Shown here piece by piece: positions 3,556-62,393 of a DNA stretch of 64,000 bases; position 1 is the stretch's first letter, and every line of letters starts with the position of its first letter. This stretch comes from Norana najaformis (taxonomy: Eukaryota; Annelida; Clitellata; Crassiclitellata; Hormogastridae). Position numbers and translations under genes: made by a program. The stretch lies in the NCBI GenBank assembly GCA_964023275.1, contig OZ029916.1, positions 15,182,607 to 15,246,606 of the forward strand, given 5' to 3'. A model generated the notes under the pieces. The model worked only from the letters and a program-made list of their open reading frames with translations. It did not search any database and had not been told where the DNA came from.

Positions 3556-7435
<3,880 letters not shown>

Positions 7436-8852
7436 ATTCTCTGCAAGGATATAAATTAAACAAAATGGAGCCTACTGTAACCTGCAATCTTTGCTTCAAA
7501 AGAATTAATTGAGTCATAAATTCAGAGCGATATTTTATACGGGTTTTACTAATTTAATTTGACTAATTTTAATAAAATAAATGAAATAAAATATACGGTA
7601 AAATGCCCCGTGGAACAAGGATGTTAAGCTAAACGTTTGACGTGTGACGGAAAAGATAGCGAAAAGAGTTCGTTACATTGAGACTTTTGACGATGCTGGT
7701 TCGCAATCGTAAACTCGAAATTTCTAAAACGCTACTTAAAAGCTAAGAGCAGGGCACCAGCTTATTCTGGTTGAACTGTTGGCGCTTTTATCTTCAGTGT
7801 TTCTGCCAATATGAAATGCTTCAAAGCTCTGTTCCCTAGAAGTCCACTATTTCGCCTTTTCAAGCTGTGCTGTCTCTAAATTCACCAGATGACTTGAGTT
7901 CCTTACAAGTTAACTCCCAGGCAAATAATTTATATACTGCAATCCGTACAGATGTTGCGTAATGGCGTAAAATTAGGGCTATACGCGTTATTCCCCGCAT
8001 CAATGCCACATCCACGTGTTAGGATTATTTTTATTTACAGGTGGTAGGCGTATATAAGAAGAAACTGTGGGCGAAACGGGGTATGAATAGACGAAGTCTT
8101 AGCGTTGCAGAGAAAACAGGTTCAATGTCTTGCTCTTGGTAAATGTTTGGCAGCAGGAGGAGCTGCGTAGCCTAAGATCAATAATAGCGTAACCGCCATC
8201 TAGGCCGTAGTTGCGCGTCGCTCTATTCGTCTGCTAAAGAGTAAAGGAGCGTGAAGAATGGTTGCCAACCGCTGTTTGCATCCGTCTCAGGCCCAGCATT
8301 TTCCCCGGATGTCTACGAAAGACCGTATGATCATTCATGTATGGCGGAAATTACGCAGTCTGCTAATAAAACTTTAAGAAATAGGATCAAAGAACTTTCA
8401 GGTGAAAACAAACGAGAACTGTTTGGTATTATGGGTGGGGGCAGAGTCGAAGCGATAAGTACGAAAATGATCGCCTACATAATCGATTATTCCAAGCATA
8501 CATTTTCAGATTCTGTCAATACTGTTCAACAATGTTCCTCACCAGTTAGTAAAAATAAACGCGGATGATCCGCTGAACTGCAGAACATACAGCCACCTAA
8601 GATGAGATTCTTGTGTTAGGATTCTTATCGGATTCTTACGGTACTTGTAAGTCATTACATGTCAAAACATTTGCCTATTAATCAGAAATCATTTTCATAC
8701 TAATCCTTGTTAATTTTATAAGCTATACATCAAATGGAAATTTCATGATATTTGACTCCAACTCATCTAGAATTAAATAAATAAAAATGCGTTATGCCGA
8801 TGGCTGTATTGATGACAGACTTGTTTCTCCCACAGACACAGAGTTACATGTA

Positions 8853-9168
8853 ATTGTAATCGTAACCGTAATTCCGATATTTCTAAAGCGCCCAACGAAA
8901 GCCGCGCCGCGGGGACCAGCTTATTCACAGGCGCTCAGTCAAAACAAAATCGATAGGCAAAAGGTTCCGATTCCAGGTCAAGATCCAAAAGTCAGACGGA
9001 GAGACAGCGTGGCAGATACGGGAGGTGGTGTTTGGGGTTGAAGAGGAGAGAGAGAGATAAGAGGAAGAAGGGGTGTGAGGATAGGATCTGTGAAATTGGA
9101 ATGTTTGGAGTTTTGAGTAAAAGGCCGAAGCAGAAATTGCAAGCGGTGGAGTTAACTGGGGAGGGGCA
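8853..9168 (+). repeat. Dispersed repeat family A, copy 1
   Basis: This is clearly homologous to 45546-45853. Shared blocks, in the same order, include AGCGCCCAACGA, AGCTTATTCACAGG, GCTCAGTCAAAACAAAATCG, the GGTTCCAGGTCGAGATCC-like stretch and the downstream purine-rich GGTGGTGTTTGG segment. A shorter degenerate copy (ACCAGCTTATTC) lies near 7694-7775. It is non-coding and its superfamily is not identified. Confidence 0.8.
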
Positions 9169-26400: not shown

Positions 26401-29400
26401 AAAAGTGATGACTATAAAAAATTAAAATGAAGGATACAATTTATGAATTTCAAAGGCACCATGGAAGAGGTCTTTGCCAAAATGAAGCTGAAACCTAAAC
26501 TAACCTAATCACAACAATAAACCTAAACTAACCTAATCACAACAATCACACATGAACGTCAGTTTATCACCTCTTGAATGGCTTGTCTGGATTGGAGGTA
26601 GAACAGTTCAACTGTTGCATTGTCTTTGAGGTAGGATATGCTTTCCACAAAAAACCTGCATTCCAATCAACACAACAGATAACACTCAAACTAATTTACT
26701 AAACACTTTGATGAAAAGCTGATCTACCAAAACAACTGATTTAAAAGCTCAGTAATAAAGAACAATTGTTTATTAATTATTTTTTGTTATTATTCATTCC
26801 ACAGAAACCGATTTGGTATGGCTACAGTAACGGTATCATATTTTGTTACAATTTTCACAAGAGAAAAACTGTTTCCTTTTACCTTACGGCGAGATATACA
26901 ACAAGTGGACCAGCAGATTTAAGAAAGCTGTGGTCTAAAACACGACGATCCAGCTGCAACCAATGGCTCTGGCCGCTGCAAAATCAGAAGAAAACCATAT
27001 AAACCACATCCCACTTCAATGCGTGCATCAGCAAACAAAAACACTGACAAACTTAGCAGGTATACCTGAACAAAAAGCAGACTATATACACTGAACCAAT
27101 AGCGGTTTGTGGGAAAGACAGCCAGGCAGCCAGCCAGAAAAGCCAAGAGACATGTACCGGTAATCTGGTATTATCCTTAGTTTAGTACCATTAGTATACC
27201 CACTCATACATACACACACTATTGTTAAACAAAGCTACCAAATTTCTTTAAAGGGATTAGATATGTTCACAGGAGCAGAATCTTCATTTACTATCTGAGC
27301 TATGAATTCAGTTAATGAACTAATTGATCAAATTAATGTTCAAGTCCTGCTGCCAAACTACACCTGGATCTGTCAAGAGAGGAGTCTAATTTTGTTTTGG
27401 AAGGCAGCAAGTAACTTCTTTTGTTTTTACAATTAATGATTTTAACTGCTGCAGTAACTTACAAAGAGTCACTGAAATGCAGACCAAAATATTCCTTCTC
27501 TTTCAGACTGAAGTGCGAGGCAGCCAAGTCGAGTAGCTCTCCAGCGTAGAGCTTCGGCTTTGAAACACAAACAAACACCCCAGTTATGCACCAAAGTAAG
27601 CAAGGAAATCCATACAATGACTACACAGACAGACAGTGAACCGTTTTGTAAAAGAGTGTTAGCATGAGCAAGGGGTTCAACTGTTACTTACCCCCTATTC
27701 ATCTATGGAACTACACCACCACTGTAAGGTAAAAGAAATAATCCTCCAATAAACCCCATCATTGATCAGTGTGCCAGCTAAATCCACTACCTGCCCTTAC
27801 CTTCACAAAACTCTGCAGGCACAGAAAAAACAGGCAGATAGAACTAAGTCGATACATTATTGGCTCCAGATAGAGAGGCAACATGTAAAAGGGTGAATAC
27901 AATAATCCTTTTCCATGTATTCAGATAGAGAGGCAACATGTAAATGGGTGAATACAATAACCCTTTTCCATGTATTCAGTAGAGGCTTTGAGATGAAGTA
28001 TTATTCCAAAGGTTAATTTAATTAAAAGCAGCTGGACAGTAAGTAATCAACCTAGAATAATGAGGAATGTATTCATCAGTTGACTACTCCAGTACAATTA
28101 GGACAGTGAAAGAATTCCTTTTCTTCTTCATTTATTTCTACATTTCTTACAATTATTTCTCTTGTGTAGTTCTTCTGGGTCTCTTCCACCTGGGATTCCT
28201 ATTTCCCTACAAGAAATAAATATTCTACGAGTGCCTGAAATTCACGACCGAGGTGTGTTTCTATCACTGGGGTCTCAAGTTGTTAAAATTATACAGCCCT
28301 GTTACTTTTACCTGATGCAACTTTGATCTCTCACCCATGATGCAGTCATTCTGCTCATCCTCTTCTCTGTTCACTTGTCCTATCACAAAGGGGCTATTGC
28401 AAGTCATTCCTCTGATCTCTTCCTCGTCACCTTTATAACTCCTTATAGTCAATGTTATCCTCTATTTTTTGCCATGTGCACAGTAGCCTACTGAGAATAA
28501 CAGGGAAAATATGCCAGAAGCTGTGACAATGAGCAAACTTTAACTTTTAAGTAACCTGAATGCTCACCACAAAATGTGTGTCCTAGAAAACTGTTGTGCA
28601 TACAATCCTCAAAAGTCATGCATGAATGAATGTGCACGGCTTAGAGGAAACACTGCTTATAGTCTGTTCCATGTGCAACCTCTTGCCTTAATCTTCAGCT
28701 TCCTCCAAAATCTCCAATCACTGCCCAGGTATTGCCTTCAGAATAAGACTGATCATCTTTTCCAACTCAGGTCCAGTTTAAAGTTGCCATCCTAGTGCAT
28801 AAAATGCACTTAAGGTCTAGCACCGAGTTACTCTGTTGACTTGTGCATTCCAGTCACACTTATCTACCAGGTCAAACTTACCATCAGCTTCTACCTAGCC
28901 AGTTTGTCACATCATTGCAAAGAAGCAAAAAACATTACAAAGAAGCAAAAAACATTGCAAAGAAGCAAAAAAGATTTTTATGTTTCTGTGCCTTTTCATA
29001 GCCTGGTTTACATAAGTGGAATTCACTACCACCAGCTTGGCTGGACCTTTATTTCTTTCTCTTGCATCATTTCACAAACAACTGAAGACACTTTTCCCAG
29101 CTACCTTCACTTTTGAGTTGAATTCAGTAATTAACTCATACATCATCTGCCACTGGTTGGAGTCAAGGCATCAATAATCAAAAAGCAAACAAATGAACAA
29201 AAACATCCAAAACACTTGTAGCAGTAGTCTGTTGCTCAAGGTCCTCACTGAGTTATAAGCTCCAGAGTGGCTCAACTTCAACTAACAGAGGAACATTCAA
29301 CCAACTGGCCATCAAGTGGCACTTAATTAACAACTCAGTAGCATGGGAATCCCATGACCTAACTGAGACAAAGTATCAACTAAAACCACCTGAAACTCCT

Positions 29401-32400
29401 TTTTCATCATTGCCTTCTTATTGGTACCATTGTCGTTATCGTCATTGTCATCATCATCACCATCATCATCATCATTGCCATCACTATCATTATCATCATC
29501 ACCACCACCATCATCTGAGAGGTTCTTAAAAGATGCTATATAAATACATAAATATCTACATACATCAACGTCCATCCATCCATTTCAGACAGCAGCAGAA
29601 ACCATATAACTTAAAGAGTGCCAAACAGAACCCTGGATTCCAATATTAATGCATATATTGGTACATTTACTATCAAAGCCAGACCGCAATCAACATGCAG
29701 GAGACTGGAAATAACATTATTTACACTTTAATCTGTAGGACAGTCTCACAGAACTTTCTTAAGTACATGAACAATTTTTTTTGTATGCACTACACAAAGA
29801 CTAAAATATCATATATATATATATATATATATATACTTTTATACCAAGTACATACATATAAGAAAAATCATACATATTACATGCAAACATTCATAGTTTT
29901 CTGTGTTGGAATTTTTATTTATGAATTCTCTCTAAAAGAATTGGCTAAGAGTCCAGATCAAAAAGTCTTCTTTTGACATAGTTTTCACTGCTTCAACAAA
30001 TCATTCCAGGTTAGCTATAAGCTGATACATATTTTCTTGAGATCAGGATCTCAACAAATCATCCAAAACCAAACATATCAAGCTCTGAATCCGTATGAGG
30101 TCTATTTATAATATATGGTATTATGTGCCAAAGTAAAAGCCTAATAAACAAGTTACGTTTAGCCACAAGACTCTTAAAACCAGATCGATATCTCTGAGCA
30201 CAATTGAAAATGCACAGACAGCAAATTAGCATTTACCTTTATCTTACCCCTTGCTTACCACTTGGCTGCCATGCCATGCTACAATCTAGAATACACGAAT
30301 GCATGTGCACGAGGATGCCAAGTTTTGGCACAGAAACGATGCACTGTATCCCACTTGTATACAATGACTAAATTAATCTGACAGGAGGAAGAACAGCAGA
30401 AAGACAAGAAGGAGGAGGATGCCACAACTGGATCATTGAAGCAGACGACTGGACCAGATGACTGGTTCAGTTCTTATGTCAACTGACCCAGCCATATAAA
30501 CTCACCATGTTTTCTCCTCTATACAGTGGAAAGGTCACAAAAAGTTAATGGAGTTTTTCTGAACTCTTGACATTTATGTGCGGCATGGCAGTGTATCAGA
30601 AACATGTTTGGTTAATGATCACAGTTCATACAGTTGCCAGTTCAACTCCGTGTGAAGACTCTGGGCAAGCTGTTTGCACACATCGTGCCTGTCACCAAGC
30701 AGTATAATTTACCGGCATAAGCTGGGAAGCAAATGGCAAGTCCTGCGATGCACTGGCCCCGTGTCCAGAACCCTGGGATTCATCTACTGCCGGCTCAAGG
30801 GCCTAAAGCAAAGGAAATGAGCACCTTCCCTGTGTCTCATATGTGGGATATGGGATACTTTTTCACTTTACCCAAGAAGCCCATATGTCACATCAGTTTA
30901 ACCGTTAGGCACAAAGACATCAGAAATTCATGACTGGAAACAAAAATCTGCCAGGAAAAGTAAGCCAATTAATGAAATCATTGATCCTTCTCTTCAAGAT
31001 GACACTAACAAGATGGTTTGTTTGAAATCACTGAAAATTTTAAGTTTCTCACAACTTTCAAATAACACTGGCCAACACATAATTTGTTGCCTCAAATGTT
31101 AGAACTGTTTCTGGGTATATTTGACTTGCTGATTCCAGAAAAGGCACCAGTTTTCTCCCAGCAGGTCTAGTTTTCGAGATATAGAACATTATGCCATATA
31201 CCAGTCCTTGCCTCTGCTCGCCCATAAAACATAAGGCTATAGCTATAATTATGTAGTGCTCAATTTATTATGTGATACACTAAATAAACATAATAATACA
31301 AATACTTAAAAGAAAATGGTAGTACCTGAAACTGTACTTATATGATACCAAACAGAACAAGTTTGTTAAAAAAATTTCAAGTCATTCGACACCGAAGAAG
31401 CTCCTTTTGTACGATTTCCGAGTGTGGCATCTGCCGGAACAATCGCGCATAATATTCCAGCAATAGTCTGCCATCATGTGTGCATCCCATCTTCCTTGAT
31501 ATCGATTTTCCATTGTTTTGATGTCTTGGTGAAATCTTTCACCTTGCTCTTCGCTGAAGTCACCAAGATTCTCTGGAAAGCGATCTAAGTGACTGTGGAG
31601 ATAATAGACTTTAATGCTCATGTTGCAGCCAAGCTTGTTGAAATGAAGAAGCATATCCTCTACTAGTTGTGCATAATTGTCTGCCTTCTTGTTGCCAAGA
31701 AAATTTTTAGTTACAAGAACAAAGGAAGACCAGGCACAAGATTCGATTTCATTCATTGATGGTATGAAAAGTGGGTCATTCATAAGTTGCCTGATCTGTG
31801 GACCATCGAAGATTCCAGCCTTCAATTTTTCCATTGTAATTCCTGGTAACTTGTGTACTATGTATTCGAAGCATGAACCTTCTTTATTCAAAGCCCTGAC
31901 AAATTGTTTCATCAGGCCTAGCTTTATATGTAGTGGTGGCAGTATGATCCTATCTCGTGCCACCAAAGATTCCTTGATTACATTTTGAGCTCCAACCACC
32001 ATGTCTTTCCTCGAAGGCCAATCTTTTTTTGTCCAATGTTCATGCTTGGCTCTACTGTCCCAAAGACACAAAAAGCAGGGATACTTTGTGTAGCCACTTT
32101 GTTGACCAAGGAGGAAATTTACCATCTTCAAGTCTACACAAATTACCCATTGATGTTCTTTGTATTTTATCTTTTCCAGTACTAAAGAGATGGCATTGTA
32201 CTCTTCTTTCATCCTGGTGGAGTGACCGATTGGAATAGAACCAAATTTGTTGCCGTTATTTAAAAGCACACATTTCAGACTACGTTTTGAACTGTCGATA
32301 AAAAGACGCCACTCATCTGGGCTGTAATCCGACAGACCAATTTTCTTCAATAAGTTGCTGATGTCATTACAGAATACTAGGTTGTTGTCTTCGGTAAAGA

Positions 32401-35400
32401 ATGGCAGCAAATCCTTTTCTCTGTTTCTATAAATTGTAATTTTCGTTCCAGGCTGAAGTGCATTCTTTTCCTTTAGTCTGGACGCAAACAATTCAGAGGA
32501 TTCTTTGGAAAGATTTAAGTCCCTGATCAGATCACTCAACTCTTTTTGGTCAAAACGTTCACTGTGTGAAGTTGATTGGAAATCACTGTCACTGCCCCCA
32601 CTTTCTTCACTTTCGTCATCTTGTCCGATATTGGACATGCAAGTGTCATCGTCTGAGAGCTGAGGTAGTTCGCGAAAAGGTGGAACTGGTACAATATCCG
32701 AATGCTGAACAGGTCTCCTGGCTGAAGGTATATCAGGGTAAGACAACTTGTGACGATTATTTCGATTGATGCCTATGATATTAACCATACAAAAGTAACA
32801 GTCGTCGAAGTGGTTTATCTGTTCCCTCCAAACCATCGGTACACCAAATTTCAGGCAGCTTCTCTTTCCAATTGTCCAGTGGCGCAATTGTTCAATACAA
32901 GTTTTGCATACTGTATGAGGAGCCCATTGCTTATCTTGATCTCCAAGTTTGACACCAAAATAACCTACATATGCTCTTTTTACAAACTCAGAAATCGGTT
33001 TCCTGTTTGCTTTTAGTGTGTATTCCCCACAAATGTAGCAGAATATGTCTGGATGGTTAATGCAGCTCCGTCTGGAAGTAGCCATAACCTTAAGGATGTT
33101 CGCATCTGAGGAATTAAATGCTAACCTAAAAATATATAGTAAGAACATGTAGTTATTTAATGCTCACATTCACAGATTGTTCTTGCGACCAACTCTTAAT
33201 ATGCCCTAAGACAACTGCGGCTGCTCTAGCTTTCAGGAGGCGGTTTATATAGGCTATAAATGCTGACTTCAGCATAATCTATTTACATAGTTCGAAACCA
33301 TGAAACGCTGTATAAGCACAAATAAATTCTAAATGAGGCCATGAATTTAGTGCTGAGTAAGCTGTAGGCTACGGAAGTTATTTCGTTGAATCAGCAATAC
33401 TTCAGCACGCGGCAAGATATGCTGATTTTACATTATAAGGATGTAGGCATTATATGAATCAGCAAGAATTATAATTAGCCATAAATAAAGCTTATTATGA
33501 CATTTTAGTTTTGCCAAAGACATCGTTTAAAGAGTGGACTGGGTTTTCTTTACAAAATCGACGATATCTCAGAAACTAGACCTGATGCACTCAATCCAAT
33601 GACATTTTCTGAATCAGCGCCCAAAATTACCCCAAGAACAGGTCTAAAACCGAAGGCAACAAGAAAAAAATTTTTTTCTGTTGGCCAGTGTAATCAGTGT
33701 TTCAACTTCACTTTCTTACAGCTTCAGAATAAGTCACCAAGTGGCCGCCATCCAGTTCTCTCCCCTTACATGCAAGATTCATGATATAAGAACAAAGAGT
33801 GAAGAACTGATTCACTGCTGCAGACAGTTACCTGAATGAGTAAGTCAAATTTTCGTCCGTCCAGCAACACAATCTTTGTTTTACGTCCTTCACTCATCTG
33901 AAAAAGGTTCATGACATTTTTATGGCAGAAAAATTCATCTCCTTATTTATCTCTAACATAAATGAGTAACATAGTAAAACTTATTTCATTCAAGGTGATC
34001 TCTCATCTGCAAAGTTGCAAAGGACAAATGGAGTCAAAACAGCCAATCTGGCAAATGAAAGACACAGGTGATCTGACTTGACAAGGAAAGAACCTGACTA
34101 AGGGCACATCGCATAAGACTGCTGGGGACGTAGTTCCTGCTTGACTTGGAGTACATTATGTTGTCGGCCTTGAACAAGAGTGGGCAGATGGAGTAAAGTA
34201 GCGGAATGCTCAGAGTTTGTTTATAGAGTAACAAATGGTGGACAGTTATTTAAATTTAATGGGAAGCTCTTACTGGGCACTCTGTATGAAAGTGCCTTGC
34301 ATACAATATGACCACTAAACAGATTAAGGAAAACAAAGAGAATGTTTCACATCACAACAATCAATAAATGCCAGTTTTCACATTTACAACATTCCGGAGT
34401 GGAGTGGACTGAGGTGACCTGTCCCAGCATAAAAAGATTACCCAGCACATACACAATTAGTTCAACCCGATTGCTCTTGTTCCACTTCGACATACAGTAT
34501 GAGTAGTCTCAGTCAAGCCCAAACCATGTTCCAAAGCGATAATAGAAAACGCCCTAATGCTAACTGGTTGATCAAAATAGCAGCTTTTGCCCCAAGTGTT
34601 TCATTCTTTAGAACCTTGTTCTTATTCTAAACATGCTGGTAGGTCAGAAATTCAACTTGGTGCTCAAAACTAAGTTTTAAATTTGGGCTATTTGAGAAAA
34701 TTTGACTATGCCACCAAACTTAGACTGGTAGGCAGCCTATCTCACAGGTATAGAGTTCCTAAAAGTGTTAATTTGATATCCATATACATACACCAGTATA
34801 CATGCTATAAATTTCTAATAATTCTATTAAACTAGGCTGTCTACTTCAAGTGGGCGATTGCTTGCGTATCAGCAAATCCTGGTGCATTATGGGTAACGGT
34901 AGTCACCGCCCTGAAAGACGGTCACAGTTGTTGGATTGCGGTTGCCCAGTCTGTCCAGTTGGCACTTTAATTCCGTCAACAACAGAAACAAGCAGGTCTC
35001 TAAGGACGACTGCTCTACGTCTAATGATTTACTGGATTTAAGGAGGCAGATGAAAGTCTCCTGAACAATGAACAATTATCTTGCTGCTCTGCTTCTTAAT
35101 ATTAAAATGTTCAAGTTTAAAAAGATCTAGGTGCAACACAACTGAGTCTAGGCTGCATTATGAAGCTTTGAAGGAAAAGACAGCGGATAGTGGCATTTTC
35201 CCTGGCAAGCACATGAGAACATGTTCAGCTTAATATTTGTTCCTCTCCTTTCTAAACAACAAAGCGACACAGAATATATATACTCTGCCTTCCCACTTAA
35301 CAGACCACTTTGTTCAGTGATACACTAGCAAATAACTGTAACAAAATGATGATAATATTTCATGGCTAGATACAAACCACCAAATAACAGAAAGAGCATA

Positions 35401-42867: not shown

Positions 42868-45545
42868 CTGCAATCTATATTACCGGGTAGATGTTGCAGC
42901 TCATCTGATTTATTTGAGCCTGTTACCCAGAAAACAAGCATAAGTGTAAAGACTTATCCACAACTGCTTGACTGCCTTTCCATATTTCAGACAGAAGCAG
43001 AGGTTTGTGTCTTCTTTTCAGAGCTAAAGCCATTTTTATTTTTACAAACATGTATTTGGTGATCTGACGGAGTCTAGATTATTAAATTCTAAGTCTCAGC
43101 ATGGCAAGGGGCAGATGCAGGTGGCAATCTGTCCATGCCCCATTTTATTTATGAAGGGGAATGGCCTCCAAACCAGTTTGACCAAGGGATGCCTGCTGAA
43201 AACAGGTTGTAAAAAATCGTGAGAAAGTTCAGGTTCTTAAAATCTGAGGAAATAATACAAGTTAAAAGAATTTGTTGAAAAGCCAAGAAATTTGTAAAAA
43301 GGAAGACAAACTTTAGAAAATGGAAAGAAAGGGGATGATTGTGCTGTGCCATAGAAGATTTTAAAAAGTTGTAGATTACTTTAAAATCGTTAGGAGATTC
43401 GAAGCCTTGAAAAGGCAGTAAAACCCAAATTTGTCGAAGAAAAGTTGTAATGACTAAAAACAGTCCCTCATAAATTTTTCACCACAGTAAATCTGGCCCC
43501 TACCTCAACTTCTGGGTCCTCTACTGAAGCATGGAAGATTAGTTGGGTCAGCAATGATATTCTCAAAAGATTCACCTATAAATTACTAATTTATAGCAAG
43601 AAGGAACTAATTGAATATATTCCCCTGCCTTTATTCTATAGCTGGCTAAAAGCACTTGTTTATAGCAATACAGACATTTCTAACATATTACTTAGCAGAT
43701 TTCTTCAATCAATGCAATGTTGGTATGTAGCTATACATTCACACAATGTCCTCTAAGTACTCTTGAAGATGAAAAAGTAGAAAAGTGACACAAGACTGGT
43801 GTCATACAAATCAATTCCAACAGGTGGAAATCCAAGAAGCTTCTTTTAGGCACCATACAGCACTGCCTTAAATGTACGTGGATTCTTGTTATTAATTTAC
43901 ATTAAATAAAATAAGATGCATTTTGGTAATTTCAGTGTTTTCACAACCATCAAAACAACAGGTCAAGCAGGTTCAACTAAGCCATCACATGCATGTTCAT
44001 ATTCCAGATCATTTGTAAATATAATAAGTAACTTTCAGGATCTGATACACCTAATTAACTTGTTCATAATTTCAAGAAATCAGTAGTACAAATATAAGCA
44101 ATTTTTAGATAGTTGCTACTTTGTACCTCACATTACAATCTGTAAGTAGACTTCAAACAATTAAACTAATCACATAAGGACCATTCAGAGAACTTTCGGC
44201 TATACCTTTCTTTCGTATTTATAACATGTTTTGTCAAAACATAACACTGTGCGTTTTGGTTAGTTCCAGAGCATCCGGTTCATTGTTAGCCAAGTTCAGT
44301 GCAAAGCGTCCGCCTTCAGTGGTTTTGGAGCATATCATTTAAAACTTCTGTTGAGAAGTTGACTTTTAAATGATAAATTATGCACAGATGACTGGATGTT
44401 GGCCAGGGTTAATATTGCCCGGGCAATAATGTCTTGATCAAGACTGGGGTAGTTAGTCAAAAAACTCTTTAGTGGGGCAATGGAGTCAGAAGTGAAGCCC
44501 TGGCTGCTGAAAATTTCACAGCATATTACTCACAAAATTGACTTTTTAAAATTTTATTGAAAATTCATTTCATTACATAAATAGCTGGAAGGAATTTAAA
44601 CTGTACCCCGGCATGTATTCCCAGCCTCAAATTTCACAGCCAGACTGAGGAGTTTAATGTTTGACCTGGGCAGGTCGAAGTGACAAGACACCAAGGCAGC
44701 CAACAATTCTAGTGAATGTTTTCGTGCAAACATCTTAAACATTCCCATTAAATGTTTTACTTATAACTTTTGGGTAATTGGCATATAAATGATTCCTAGG
44801 GGTTCAAACCAACACCACAGCACGAATTTTTAATCAGTATCAGTGGGTAGCTATCTTTTTCAACAGCTTTCAATCATAATTCAACGCTTCAACACCGTCG
44901 CCTTTCGCATTACCTTCTCTCTGCCAGAGCCGGATGAGACGTAGCCATTCCAGATGCTCAATACTGTTTTCGGACTAATTTTTTCACCACTTGAGGGATT
45001 ATACCTACCTCGGGTAAAAATAATAATAATAACAATAATAATAATAGTAGTAGTAATAGTAATAATAATAATAATAACTTCTGAAAAAATCATTAAGCTC
45101 TCCAAAACTGTTTGAGGTGGAACCCTCGCCATCGACGATTTATTTTTTCACGTACTTTCTGCATTTCTATAGAAAAATTTACTTTTAAAGCGAAATTTTG
45201 GGGCTTCAGCCCCTTAGCCCCATAGCCGCCATTGCTATCATGCACATGGTTAAACTTCGTATAATTTGTAAACATGTAAGAAACGTTTAGATTCTCACTT
45301 CTCTGCTTACCTTACGTTAAGTTAAAAGAAATTAGCTGCGCAAATATTTACAATTCTTCTGATGACCGTTTGTTTGTACTACACGCGACGGCCTGTGCGT
45401 AAACTTTACGTCGTTTTAAACCAATACCTATGAGGCGCCTCCAGAGAACTTCCGGTTACGCCTCCATAGTTTTCTATTAAAACAAAACACCGTTGAGCTC
45501 AGTAAGTAAGTTAGTAACACCAAAGTGCTCTGCTTTGTTCGCCAT

Positions 45546-45853
45546 ACGTAATCGTAATCTCAAGATACCTTATCTCAATACAGCGCCCAACGATAGTTAA
45601 GTCGCAGGAACAAGCTTATTCACAGGTGCTCAGTCAAAACAAAATCGATTTAAAAGAAGAATTCGGTTCCAGGTCGAGATCCAAGAGTCAGGCAGGCAGG
45701 CTACGGTGGGTGGTGTTTGGAATTGGTTCTACAGGACAGATAGGGGAAGAGGAGGAATCAGAATAGGATCTGCGGAAGAGAGTGTTTCCAGTTTTGAGTG
45801 GAAGACCTGGGCAGAGATTGCAAGGAGAGAAGTGATAGTGAGTGGTGGTGAAA
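45546..45853 (+). repeat. Dispersed repeat family A, copy 2
   Basis: Homologous to 8853-9168 with the same block order (GCGCCCAACGA, AAGCTTATTCACAGG, GCTCAGTCAAAACAAAATCG, GTTCCAGGTCGAGATCC). It ends just before the hAT MITE at 45867. Confidence 0.8.
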
Positions 45854-56689: not shown

Positions 56690-59600
56690 ACATGTTTTTA
56701 TATAAATACTTGTGCTTAATACTTGAAAAATGCGAAGATATGCAGATGCATGCATGTATGACCATCGTATTTTAACTTGCAATCTGTAGGCAAGTCAATA
56801 AACTTTAGCGGACAATGGCTATTCACGATTACTATCTTCTGAAAGACATTTACTTCTTCACAAGCTATTTCTTTCTTTGTCATCGAAGCCTTTCATTTAA
56901 AACGCCTTCCTTCCTGCCTTTCTCTACACATACCTTTCTATTACACTCCCTCTCGCCCTCTCTACCTATCCGCCTATCAATCAATCAATCAATCTGTCTG
57001 CATATTAGTGAGTCAGTCAGTGAGTCAGTCAGTGAGTCAGTCAGTGAGTCAGTCAGTGAGTCAGTGAGTCAGTGCATCAGTGCATCAGTCAGTCAGTCAG
57101 TCAGTCAGTCAGTCAGTCAGTCAGTGCATCAGTGTCAGTCAGTCAGTCAGTCAGTCAGTCAGTCAGTCAGTCAGTCAGTCAGTCAGTCAGTGATCAATCG
57201 ATCCATACATCCATGCATCCAACCAACCAACCATCTATCCAACCATCCAATCATCCAACCAACCATCCATCCATCCATCCAACCATCCAACCATCCAACC
57301 AACCATCCATCCATCCATCCATCCAACCATCCAATCATCCAACCAACCATCCATCCATCCATCCAACCATCCAACCATCCAACCATCCATCCATCCAACC
57401 ATCCAACCAACCATCCATCCATCCAACCATCCAACCAACCATCAATCTATCCATCCGTCCATCCGTCCGTCCGTCCGTCCGTCCGTCCGTCCGTCCGTCC
57501 GTCCGTCCGTCCGTCCGTCCGTCCGTCCGTCCGTCCGTCCATCCATCCATCCATCCACAGTTCACAATTTAATTCTTATACATGAAGTATCTACAATTAT
57601 TATATCGTTTTGTATCACAGTAGTTTACCTCTGTTAACTTTCACTTCTGTGTTAAAGTCTTCCTCGTTGTATGGATCGTGTATCTTATTTTGTTCTTTGC
57701 CATCTGATGAAGTGGATCTGGCGAATTGACTGGTTCTTGTCATGGACATACCAGACATCGATCCACCTCCATTCATGATTAAGGAACCAGAAGCTTCGCC
57801 ATTCTGCATTTGTCCCAAATATCCACGATGATCAAGAAACGCCTTCGATCTGTCTTTCTGGCCTTCTCTTTCTCTGGTCACCAAAACGTCTCTGTCGAAA
57901 TCATCTCTATAGCCAGAACCTTCACGACGATTTATGGTGTTGGTGGTTGTGGTTGTGATTTTCGTGTTGCCGTGTGACAGTGATTCAAATTCCAACTGGT
58001 CTGGAATATTATAGTCTGTTGGCCGGTTGATGTCCGAGATCGCAGATGCCTGATCGCCAGTTCGTTGTGCTCTCATAATCCCCTTACTGATCCTGCCTCT
58101 ATCGACCTTCACCCTGGTCTGCGAACTTTCGGGTTCATTAATTTCCGCTGGAACTAAATCCGTCAGGAAGTTGTCTACGTTGTCCTCATCGTCGGATTTG
58201 TTCAAGTCCGGATTGCTGGAGTAGACCGGATTTTCCTTGCGCAGCCTATACTTTCCGTGAAACATGTTGTTGTTTTCTTCGATGACTGTGGCATCGTCAT
58301 CGTCGTCCGTTTCAACGACGTCTATGACCTGTGGGGGATTCGTCGTATCGAAGGTGTTCTTTATCAGCATGCTTCCGCGCACGATGTTGGGCAGCTTATC
58401 GGAATGCTTGCTTCTAGTTGAGCCATCAGGTTCTTCGACCGCCGATCTTCCCATCACGTCAACGCTTTTGCCGAGGTCTATGACGAAAGACTCTTCTCCG
58501 CCAGTTATTACGCGCTGCGATCCAGAGACGCGCGGAACTACATATCGATCGTCAATCGACTCCGAGGAGACGGTTTCTTTTATCGTGGTTCCTCCGCCCT
58601 GCAGTTCCAGGTGGAAGGCGACCTGGTTTTGAGATGTGTGGCCAAGTGATGATTGTTGATTTGACGAATGACGGATAGATGATGGAGGTCTCATCGATTG
58701 ACTGGATAAGCCAAGATCATCTTCCGTAAGCAGCCAACTGGTCCGCGGGACGTTCGATAGACTGCTTTGTGAATGTCTCGGGACAGATCTTATCGCAGTG
58801 TCGACCAGTTCGTAAGTTTGCACGGCACTTCCCGGCCTACTCATGCTCATGATCGGTCGAATGCTCATCGTGATGTGATAGATATTGCCCGTCTTCTGTG
58901 CATCTCTAAGTTCCGGGTCAACACCTATAACCTCAGCAATATCTGGACTTATGACGTTAACCGATCTCAGGTAGGAACTGCCGGCGGGGCTGGTAGGTGG
59001 GTAGGCCAGCTGGGGGTTGTATATGACGTTGGGATAGCTTGCAGGGCTCGAATTCAGAGCCGACCGAGGCCTTGAACCATTCTGGACGTTTATAAAACCA
59101 GCCACAGGAGTAGCGGATCGGGCCACAGGAGTAGCGGATCGGGATAGATTGGTTTTTGATGTGGTGCGGGAAACACTTATTCGTCCGGTGATGGGAGTAA
59201 CGTTTCGATACGACATTTGAACTGCACTATCTGGGCGAACGCGAGTGGTCGGCGGAACACTTGGCGAGCGGGTGACCTCGGATGCCAGAATCGGTCTTGA
59301 GGAAGAGCGAGGGTAAGTGATGAGACCCGTCACAGGAGTAGACGACTTGGTCACATGGCTCTCCCTGTGGATATACTCCGGCTCGCTGTAAATTGCTGGG
59401 TCCTCGGTGTCGCTTTCGACACTCAGCCTCGATACGTGTCGCTTCATCCTACGTCGCATCACGGACGATCGATGCCCGGCGTTGTCTTCCTGGTCCGTCA
59501 AGGAAGAATCAGTGACCTGTCGCGATGGTCTTCTCTGCCTCGATCTTCTTCTATTCTGTTCATAGAGCCCCGTGCGCCCTCTTTCGCTGTCTGTCAAGGA

Positions 59601-62393
59601 GCGCCGGGAGTTGAAGGAGACGTCTCGATCTGGAGAGATTTGTATCATCAAGCCTCTGCTGTTTCCTTCTGGTGCTCTTCCAACGTCCTGATCGTGTGGA
59701 TGTGTCCAGACTGGCGACAGAGCAGTCTTCGCTTCTGGAGATTCGTCTGACGAAAAGCTAATGTGCACGCCCGATTCACTCGTGACCTGACGATCAAACG
59801 ACCGCGAGCGATCTCTAAAACTGTCGACATTTGGAACATCGGAAGCGAAGTTTTTTCGTGGTGCAGGTTGTGGATATCCTTCAGAATCATCGCTGAACTC
59901 TCTTCCCGACTCTCCACGGCCAATTCCGTTTTGGACGGTTGTCTCAAAGTCGTTCATCGGAGCAATGCGCCGTATATGGTCTCGACCCGTGATGACGACC
60001 TTGCGTCCTGCAGTCGGTTGTTGGGACTGAAGCGGACGATGAGACGAAGAAGCGAAGCTCTGCGTCTCTGGTGTTGTCTTGGAACGCTGACTTTCTAACG
60101 GTACGTAGCTCTCCGATGAATTCTCGTTCGATATCTTGTGATTTATTTTCGACCTTCCGCCGAACTTTGCTCTCTGACGGCCCGAATAGTCGCTACCGTC
60201 TGTCAGCTGAGCCTCGTTCTGGTCGTCCAGAATTCCATCTCGTACGTTCCTTTCCAAGACGACGATGTCCCTGTCAGCCCTGTTCGGCTCCTCTTCGGGC
60301 AGCGGTCTTGCTGGAGTGCGTTTAATTCTATCGGCGTTGTTCATGCGATGGCGAAGGGGTCTTTGCTCGCTGTCTTCAGCGGAAACGCTGCTGGAATACT
60401 CCGGCTCATCCAGTTCTGGCTGATCTTGCCTCTCAGCAACTGTGTATTTTTTCTCAACCGGAAGTGGCCTCGTGTCGTTTGACTTGGTGTCATTGTCTTC
60501 AGTCAGATGCAACGTCACAACATGTCTCCCAATATTTTCCTGATCGTCGGTTGTAGAATCGTTGTCATCTTGTATTTTAGGCTCATCGTCTCGCCTAATG
60601 GCTGCGTCTTCTAAGTTGTAACTCAGCCCGGTTTCACTGCCGTCTGTAATCTCAACGGACACGGATGTACCTTCTGTAGTGGACCTGCCAGCTCTCTGAG
60701 TGCTGGCTACGGAGCTCAATAGTGCAGAAGGCTCGCCATCGAGAGTTGCATCTGTCTCGTCCGATTCTGATTGTGTCGATCTCTGATCGATGTTATTATC
60801 CACAGACTTATCGATGCTCTGCGCAGTATAGGTCGAAGTCATAGGAATGGTATTCGTGGTGGTCGTTGTCTCGCGTATTTCAAGAGCAGGTGAATCTTCC
60901 CTCTCTGACGACATGTCATCGTCTTCCGAGAGACCACCTGCTCGGCTGCCGTCTCCTGAATTTGTACTCGGCTCAGCTGTGCCACGATTTCTGATGTCCT
61001 GAAGCAAGTTCATGCTCATCTTATGCTTCTGTTGCATCCTGGCATCGTCCTCACTTTCTGTGGTCATGTTAGCTTCACTTTCTGATGGTCGATCTATCCC
61101 TTCCACCGCATACTTAAACTTCTTTGACTGAGCTCTGTCTTCGGACTGGTTGCTCGCCCTGGATGGCTGTCGTTCCAAGGATGAAACCGACGCAGCATCC
61201 ATTGATCGCCCGGTGAGCGGAACATTTCGAATCGCCAATTCACTTGCAAGTCTGTTCACCTTTCCCTGGGTGATAACATCTCGCAGGTCGGAGGGCGTCG
61301 TTGATCGCTGGCTTCGCGCTTCTGATGCGCGTCCCTCGAGAGTGCTCTGCCTTGACTCAGCCGGAGTCACAACATCCCGAAGGTCCCTCGACAGCGTACT
61401 CGTCCGGGACTCCACGAGAGTATCGTTATCAGACGAGTCGGTCTTCTCGATTCCTTTTCGTCCTCGGACGAGCGATGCGGCGGCACTGGTCGAAATTGGT
61501 GACGTCGTCCCACTGCCACCTAAGACGGCAGCCATTTTAGCCATGAAACTTTTGTCTTTCACCTTAGAGTTGCTGGCGTCGATTTCAGCCGGGGAATATC
61601 TCGGAAGCGAGTGGGAAATGACTTCGCTGTCCTGATCCGAACCATATCCACTTCGCCTGCCGCTGTTAAGATGACTTCCATGATCGATGTCTGTTTCGGT
61701 CTCACTCTGTGAGAGGTCAGCCAACGACCTCGCTCCTCTCAGGTCGCCAGTGAGTCCGACTCCACCAGCGCTTGTCAGAGTGCTCGTAGAAGAGGCGGAG
61801 GAGAGCGAGTTCCACTGACCGTTTCGGGAAGCCTGCTTTCCAGTGCTTTCCAGTGTACTAGAAACAGACGACGAAGCCTTTGCGCTGCTTTTTCCAGCTG
61901 GATCCATGCTTACCAAGTGGGAAAACCCGTTTTGTTTGCTCCCAGATCCACTTATACTGCCTTCGCTGGATAGTTTCCTTGTCAGAGTGTTGGCCAGATT
62001 GGCCTTGAAGTCTGCATTGCGGAGACTGTCCGACGTAATTGCAGGGACAGCGTTTGAAGAGGTCGCAGTCTTCTTCTGGAAAGTCCCTCGCTGTCGAGAC
62101 GTATCGCTTTTGCTATAGTTACTTCCAGCTTTGGCACTTGTCGATGGCACTCCCTCGAAATCCTCGTATATATTATACGTCATTTCTTCCGACCGGGCCA
62201 TGGTCTTGGACGCGCTTGGGTTGCGAAAGACGGACAGCGATCGCGTCGATTTAAGCGAGTCATTTTTTCCCATACTCGGGTAATTGCTATCCAAAGTCCC
62301 ATCGTAATTATCTTCAATGTCAGAACGGCGGTAGTCCAACGTATCGCCGTTATGTTCGGCATCAACCGTTAACAAGTTTTTGGTAGCAGCCAT
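50767..62393 (-). CDS. Large Ser-rich, probably disordered protein of unknown family (3 exons, 1,803 aa)
   Basis: Exons are 62393-57629, 53988-53950 and 51374-50767; all phases match (5,412 nt with stop). Upstream of the ATG an in-frame TGA at 62432-62430 supports the start. The first exon alone encodes 1,588 residues rich in Ser, Thr, Arg and Asp, with no membrane helix or globular domain I recognise. Visible features are a YNIYEDFEG tyrosine motif near residue 75, an Arg-rich segment near 950-965 ([12 protein letters not shown]), TP(V/I)(T/A)G repeats at about 1018-1115, and an acidic run ([17 protein letters not shown]) near 1357-1373. The 202-residue C-terminal exon has amphipathic helices, for example [16 protein letters not shown] and [21 protein letters not shown] cytoskeletal or signalling scaffold is a guess from composition only. 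Confidence 0.75.
51709..51864. repeat. (ACAT)n microsatellite
   Basis: An ACAT tetranucleotide array broken regularly by a single-base slip (ATAACATACAT). It is about 330 bases beyond the terminal exon acceptor, in the second intron of the 1,803 aa gene. Confidence 0.95.
53674..53757. repeat. Perfect 84 bp palindrome with TA core
   Basis: The arms contain CATGCATCCCTACACAAAAG and CATTC, followed by a symmetrical (TA)n core and the exact inverse. It has no spacer, so it could extrude as a cruciform. A further (TA)n tract follows to about 53840. It lies about 190 bases past the micro-exon donor. Confidence 0.9.
53950..53988 (-). CDS. 39 nt micro-exon
   Basis: Lies between acceptor GAAACGCAG and donor GGTG|GTAAGT. 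It encodes [13 protein letters not shown] across its junctions and preserves frame from exon 1 (phase 1 in, phase 1 out). Because its length is a multiple of three it could be skipped without a frameshift, so it may be a cassette exon. Evidence is splice sites and phase only. Confidence 0.6.
54240..54300. repeat. (GGAA)n microsatellite
   Basis: Short GGAA tetranucleotide array inside a wider purine-rich stretch (about 54100-54320). Confidence 0.9.
55024..55140 (+). repeat. SINE-like repeat family B, diverged copy
   Basis: GGAAGACTTCTATAGCGCCG, ATAAGACATCTGTCGGTG and TCGAAACCC match blocks of the family at 41041 and 46540. It is in the first intron of the 1,803 aa gene. Confidence 0.5.
56598..56692. 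repeat. (CA)n microsatellite
   Basis: A CA dinucleotide run of about 90 bases, flanked by ACATGTGTGT and ACACACATGT, which are complementary to each other. Confidence 0.97.
57005..57556. repeat. Compound tetranucleotide satellite
   Basis: Three adjoining blocks: (TCAG)n at about 57005-57192, (CCAT/CCAA)n at about 57200-57455 and (CCGT)n at about 57456-57540. It ends about 75 bases before the donor of exon 1 of the 1,803 aa gene. The open frames across it (Ser-Val-Ser-Gln, His-Pro-Ser-Ile and the like) come from the repeat. Confidence 0.95.
57629..62393 (-). CDS. Exon 1 of the 1,803 aa protein gene
   Basis: A 4,765 nt single coding exon. The frame runs to a stop at 57615, but AACAGAG|GTAAAC at 57629 is a good donor and leads in phase 1 to downstream exons that continue on the same strand. 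If unspliced, the protein would end four codons later (1,592 aa). Such a long, purely low-complexity but codon-biased exon is typical of intrinsically disordered animal scaffolds. Confidence 0.8.

Follow-up and report, generated by a model that had tools for sequence, protein, structure and literature searches.

The stretch of Norana najaformis DNA analysed here (64,000 nucleotides of contig OZ029916.1 in assembly GCA_964023275.1, positions 15,182,607 to 15,246,606; hereafter the window, C4:15182607-15246606 in the genome searched) harbors a complete DNA transposon of 2,625 bp at window positions 31066..33690 (C4:15213672-15216296), with its open reading frame on the minus strand and with limits given by its ends, its flanks and a second full copy. 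The element is bounded by a perfect 12-bp terminal inverted repeat, which reads CACTGGCCAACA on the plus strand at the end downstream of the open reading frame (31066..31077) and is found as the exact complement of CACTGGCCAACA on the minus strand at the upstream end (33679..33690). The trinucleotide TAA flanks it on both sides as the target-site duplication (31063..31065, preceded by A, and 33691..33693, followed by T). Both the ends and these flanks are present as claimed in a preliminary description made from the sequence alone. Perfect 12-bp inverted pairs lying 0.5-8 kb apart occur 163 times in the window, and only two of these pairs have equal 3-bp flanks, the other one being a (GT)n microsatellite. 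In addition, we observed a subterminal inverted region, comprising a left arm of about 128 bp (31066..31193, plus strand, with a AGGTCTAGTTT..GAGATAT block) and a right arm of about 138 bp (33553..33690, minus strand), as delimited by alignment. The outer 150 bp yielded a local score of 40, compared with a maximum of 19 among 500 random window pairs, and a score of 38 when the first 12 bp were omitted, compared with a maximum of 20 among 1000 Markov shuffles. Hence, the patchy inverted similarity of about 120 bp suggested earlier is real. Overall, it is as good as certain that positions 31066-33690 represent a DNA transposon. As set out below, it probably belongs to an autonomous cut-and-paste family of the Chapaev3 kind within the CMC/CMCT group.

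Searching the host genome (608,420,607 bases in 17 contigs) for the exact 12-bp end yielded 1561 forward and 1295 reverse matches (2856), as opposed to 13 and 12 (25) for the reversed control, which confirms the many loci sharing these termini that had been proposed as a test and indicates a family whose nearly identical members number in the order of a thousand. The forward ends exceed the reverse ends, and tandem end arrays may contribute to this difference. In a blind sample of 26 host stretches of 10 kb each, a second copy was found by luck at C1:8305-10929. This copy 2 has the length of the window copy (copy 1), from which it is separated by 25 substitutions and three small gaps (1, 3 and 2 bp), and it shows identical ends with A-TAA..TAA-T flanks. 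The homology between the two copies stops at the termini plus the common ATAA and TAAT, the flanks being otherwise unrelated; similarity of the reading frame extending past these ends, which would have spoken against a mobile unit with these limits, was thus not seen in this pair. The 260 kb of sampled host sequence contained no further protein match (next best E 3.4).

A genome-wide protein search returned 6404 first-look candidates, and the best 77 of them, which were scored and include that of the window, are 99-100% identical. No stop codon interrupts 76 of these 77 frames and one contains a TGA; because the frames are the best-scoring ones, this proportion does not give the open fraction of the whole family. 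Copies 3 (C1:886204) and 4 (C1:1019856) share 99.87% identity in both of their 1.5-kb halves, and their divergence from copy 2 amounts to 0.6-1.3%. Compared half by half with the window copy, copies 2-4 show 98.4-99.3% identity. Copies 1 and 2 differ at 13 coding sites, and ten of these differences are non-synonymous, where 77% are expected without selection, indicating neutral copies rather than a selected host gene. These data fit recently dispersed copies that drift neutrally.

The flanks were compared for adjacent plus/minus end pairs on contig C1, 37 of which were counted by eye among 100 places listed. The count comprises 28 of these 37 pairs and the window copy; the one pair among the 37 that belongs to a tandem array was fetched but excluded. 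Equal flanking 3-mers were observed in 27 of the 29 (22/24 and 5/5 in two sets), compared with 144 of 552 swapped pairs. As two of the counted loci share the same near flanks and represent a duplicated locus, 26 of 28 independent pairs remain. Longer identity is rare, with equal 4-mers in 0/24 and equal 5-mers in 1/24. The 27 duplications comprise TAA (11), TTA (9), TTT (3), ATA (2), GTA (1) and TAG (1); thus, 20 of them, including the TAA in the window, correspond to the 3-bp TWA of Chapaev3. An A before and a T after the duplication, the insertion context of Chapaev3, were found in 25 of 29 cases (20/24 and 5/5), the window copy among them, and in 24 of 29 this context coincides with equal 3-mers. 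The 3-bp duplication anticipated in the preliminary description thus holds.

Empty sites had been anticipated as well, and those found are paralogous and not alleles, at a single target. They emerged when the joined flanks of 24 copies were compared with roughly 345 kb of host DNA. The copy at C1:7783817 is embedded in a dispersed repeat, two other members of which (L015, 111/139 identical, and L034, 102/132) cross the join ungapped with a single TTT, which shows duplication of the 3-mer upon insertion at this target. In the alignment of a third member (L027) there is a single gap, which does not fall at the join. The copy at C1:7808604, whose near flanks equal those of C1:7783817, likewise matches unoccupied members of the repeat. 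Other joined-flank matches were not used, being gapped, shorter, short of the join or in simple repeats, and for the window copy no empty site was found in the sequence compared.

Two arrangements of ends on the same contig deserve mention. At L045 (C1:909014 and 909031) two element ends lie 17 bp apart, as one copy is nested in an A-TAA-T within the left end of another, which implies that the element contains a site for its own insertion. At C1:4020208-4029858 (L092-L096) four plus-strand ends spaced 2.3-2.4 kb apart are followed by one minus-strand end. Two junctions in this locus join an end to identical foreign sequence, and the outermost flanks are both TTA; the arrangement resembles a composite tandem array assembled from element ends.

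The element encodes a putative transposase on the minus strand (31382..33085) of 567 amino acids when read from the second ATG at 33085, which is the likelier translation start, or of 588 amino acids from the ATG at 33148. The frame is single and uninterrupted, as previously noted; it is not exactly centred between the ends, since the 567-residue version leaves 605 bp to the right and 316 bp to the left within the element. The motif TATATAAA about 160 bp upstream of the ATG at 33085 and an AATAAA after the stop codon, still inside the element, are suggestive of a self-contained gene. Positions 33086-33160, directly before the second ATG, could also be read as a very short 5′ intron (GTGAGC ... 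TTTTTAG).

In the 567-residue numbering, three CxxC pairs (CYIC, CKTC and CYFC) lie within the N-terminal 99 residues. This Cys-rich region (32789..33043, minus strand like all motifs below) is a candidate for the 'Chapa' zinc domain; its zf-AD match (E 0.0043) stays below the cut-off. The C(2)C motif PCFLC with C337 and C340 (32057..32080) and the LH motif at residues 385-386 within PPLHIK (PPLH 383-386; 31922..31939) are present. From the order of motifs we propose a catalytic triad, which in Chapaev3 belongs to an RNase H-like fold, consisting of D264 in FIDSS (32288..32302), D318 in VICVD (32132..32146) and E516 in SEEQGERFH (31529..31555). At the H(4)H site (31583..31609) the window copy reads Y494-x4-H499. 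A histidine at position 494 had been expected before any other copy was seen, and it is present in all three other copies read, so that the H(4)H motif exists at the family level. The 21-mer with the tyrosine codon occurs at 11 places in the genome, including the window. Moreover, residue 264 is Glu in copy 2 (C1:8305) and Asp in copies 1, 3 and 4. Hence, at least two copies carry a doubtful key residue, while the plan of the family is whole. Of the intactness ascribed to the window copy earlier, the open frame stands, but not every key residue does. With Tyr replacing the leading histidine of the H(4)H motif, this copy probably lacks a fully working enzyme, but it may still be mobilised by enzyme supplied by other copies.

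The family described here reads HSHLDRFP, and a similar pattern that it lacks, HSHLDFFP, is abundant in the genome, with 616 and 680 matches on the two strands (1,296) compared with 1 and 0 in the control. These sites, among them C1:5421941, 9588451 and 22930398, use several codon forms. Their abundance suggests that the genome probably contains one or more other large families related to this one, the kinship being based on this one motif.

The preliminary description had left the superfamily unassigned and had presumed the encoded protein to be of an anonymous kind that is highly repeated in many invertebrates. The superfamily can now be assigned with some confidence. According to the published description, the Chapaev3 hallmarks are CAC/GTG ends, a TWA duplication between A and T, the C(2)C, LH and H(4)H motifs and a mostly single-exon gene (PMC4079192). 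The window copy shows 5′-CAC...GTG-3′ termini (the 29 sampled copies, which were chosen for their exact ends, add nothing on this point) as well as C(2)C and LH; together with the target, the single exon and the H(4)H of the family, these features fit Chapaev3. The same source describes the Chapaev3 elements Merrow, Garfield and Conan as sharing CAC/GTG ends, A-TWA-T, C(2)C, LH and H(4)H with the family here, with a transposase of about 560 amino acids and a length of 2.3-2.5 kb, close to the approximately 570 amino acids and 2,625 bp found here, although Merrow and Garfield have two exons rather than one open frame (PMC4079192). The placement, made by structure and motifs against this published description, is probable rather than proven, and we regard the element as a well-supported and apparently new family of an already described kind. 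As the hallmarks had been published, the link between such a protein and defined termini, whose novelty had been stressed earlier, is not new in principle.

Chapaev and RAG1/Transib are further relevant systems, and the target duplication of Transib is 5 bp long. As described in PMC3985635 and PMC4411706, Chapaev and RAG1/Transib share the CMCT motif plan with the element, the Cys-rich N-terminus may equal the 'Chapa' domain described there, and DUF1280 (PF06918) represents the Chapaev family. Chapaev itself is given duplications of 3-4 bp in PMC4079192, compared with 3 bp and a lack of any Pfam DUF1280 match here. Chapaev elements are also listed in a fly and an octopus (PMC3630058, PMC13282606), which has no bearing on the placement.

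Several observations nevertheless weigh against Chapaev3. Seven of the 27 duplications are not TWA and the A..T context is absent in 4 of 29 cases, unlike in the published description, where the rule covers all Chapaev3 elements examined (PMC4079192). Two of the 29 pairs have unequal 3-mers (CTA/TTA and TTA/TAA), as does the excluded tandem-array pair L095/L096 (TAC/TTA), and the window copy itself lacks H(4)H between the second D and the E owing to Tyr494. A Pfam scan of the transposase up to E 10, with filters that remove most matches above 0.1, gave only two sub-threshold zinc-finger matches and neither DUF1280 (PF06918), Transposase_21 (PF02992), a Harbinger transposase domain nor any other transposase model. 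Furthermore, a PDB search gave no match, and a single-sequence fold model reached a pLDDT of 35.

Outside the host, no relatives were found in the viral_contigs or phages sets, NCBIfam and PHROGs contained no family match, and a PMC literature search for the motif EEQGERFHQD returned nothing. Motif matches in genome_contigs (11) and viral_contigs (2) were dismissed as chance by translation.

The looser target, with its 7 of 27 non-TWA duplications, and the absence of DUF1280 or any other Pfam transposase match could alternatively indicate a separate, undescribed CMCT lineage, sister to or outside Chapaev3, that has CAC/GTG ends and 3-bp duplications of its own, the more so as PMC12730594 reports several divergent CMCT lineages with the same motifs. 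We consider this unlikely, since the A-TWA-T preference, LH, the single exon and the size all match the Chapaev3 description (PMC4079192). It would be similarly surprising, in our estimation, if the family were a currently active, self-sufficient deep CMCT lineage distinct from the described Chapaev3, with a looser target and in mid-burst within a 608-Mb animal genome with about 1,300 HSHLDFFP sites; if true, however, a functional transposase could be obtained from nature for the group in which RAG1 originated. In PMC12730594, EnSpm/CACTA, Mirage, Plavaka, ESTA and Lanisha, like the element, have C(2)C and H(3-4)H between D2 and E; ESTA duplicates TA, unlike the 3-mer found here, and a Transposase_21 match is missing. 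EnSpm is moreover credited there with 5′-CAC..GTG-3′ ends and 3-bp duplications, and on these grounds the element could be an EnSpm/CACTA element proper. Given that no Transposase_21 or other Pfam transposase match was obtained, and that TWA between A and T and a short single exon are what the published description reports for Chapaev3 (PMC4079192), we regard this as highly improbable.

Still less credence can be given to two further explanations. TAA and TTA duplications as observed here would also be expected of a PIF/Harbinger-type element, for which TWA duplications are typical too. Such an origin is next to impossible in view of the CAC/GTG ends, C(2)C and H(4)H in CMCT order and the absence of a Harbinger match in the Pfam scan up to E 10. 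Equally implausible is a host gene or a domesticated transposase retained for function at this locus: a single long open frame running in the same direction as the host gene would suit it, but copies in the order of a thousand with mobile-element flanks and the neutral change between copies 1 and 2 do not. Harbinger, EnSpm and a domesticated gene were accordingly set aside on ends, motifs, Pfam negatives and copy number.

For the family of Chapaev3 kind that we favor, a course of transposition can be proposed. The single-exon gene would give rise to a transposase with an N-terminal Cys-rich region and a catalytic domain containing D, D, C(2)C, LH, H(4)H and E. By analogy, the Cys-rich region would bind the element ends. 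The enzyme would cleave the element at its CAC/GTG termini and insert these with a 3-bp stagger into a target that is usually A-TWA-T, and this staggered joining would leave the duplicated 3-mer. The family may still move by a cut-and-paste reaction.

Taken together, the analysis connects one putative transposase with precisely defined termini and a target rule, and also with empty sites and a copy number in the order of a thousand. The notable features of the family are its youth and its copy number, and with near-identical copies, many of which have open frames, it lends itself well to an activity test. Moreover, the family is relevant to the enzymes that gave rise to the vertebrate V(D)J recombinase.

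As for its surroundings, the window copy resides in an intron of a host gene, as the preliminary description had stated. The host exon at 33832..33897 on the minus strand, just upstream of the element, was delimited by splice signals and a FERM_N match. This exon (33897-33832) splices in phase to the next exon starting at 27557, and the two jointly match Pfam FERM_N with an E value of 2.6e-11. FERM exons therefore lie on both sides of the element, which is situated about 140 bp inside the 6.3-kb intron, its open reading frame being oriented like the host gene. This gene may be FRMD4-like. Upstream of the FERM exons, an open frame of 1,592 amino acids on the minus strand (57615-62393), for which no Pfam match up to E 1 was found, is probably a large host-gene exon.

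Neither Rfam nor tRNA features were found in the window. A dispersed, SINE-like repeat of about 300 bp occurs at 8851-9153 and 45523-45843, and similar stretches are present in many sampled host loci. In addition, a 36-bp tandem repeat with 12.4 copies is located at 3572-4016, with more than one open frame on both strands. Elsewhere in the genome, contigs C5 and C3 start with telomere-type CCCTAA/TTAGGG repeats.

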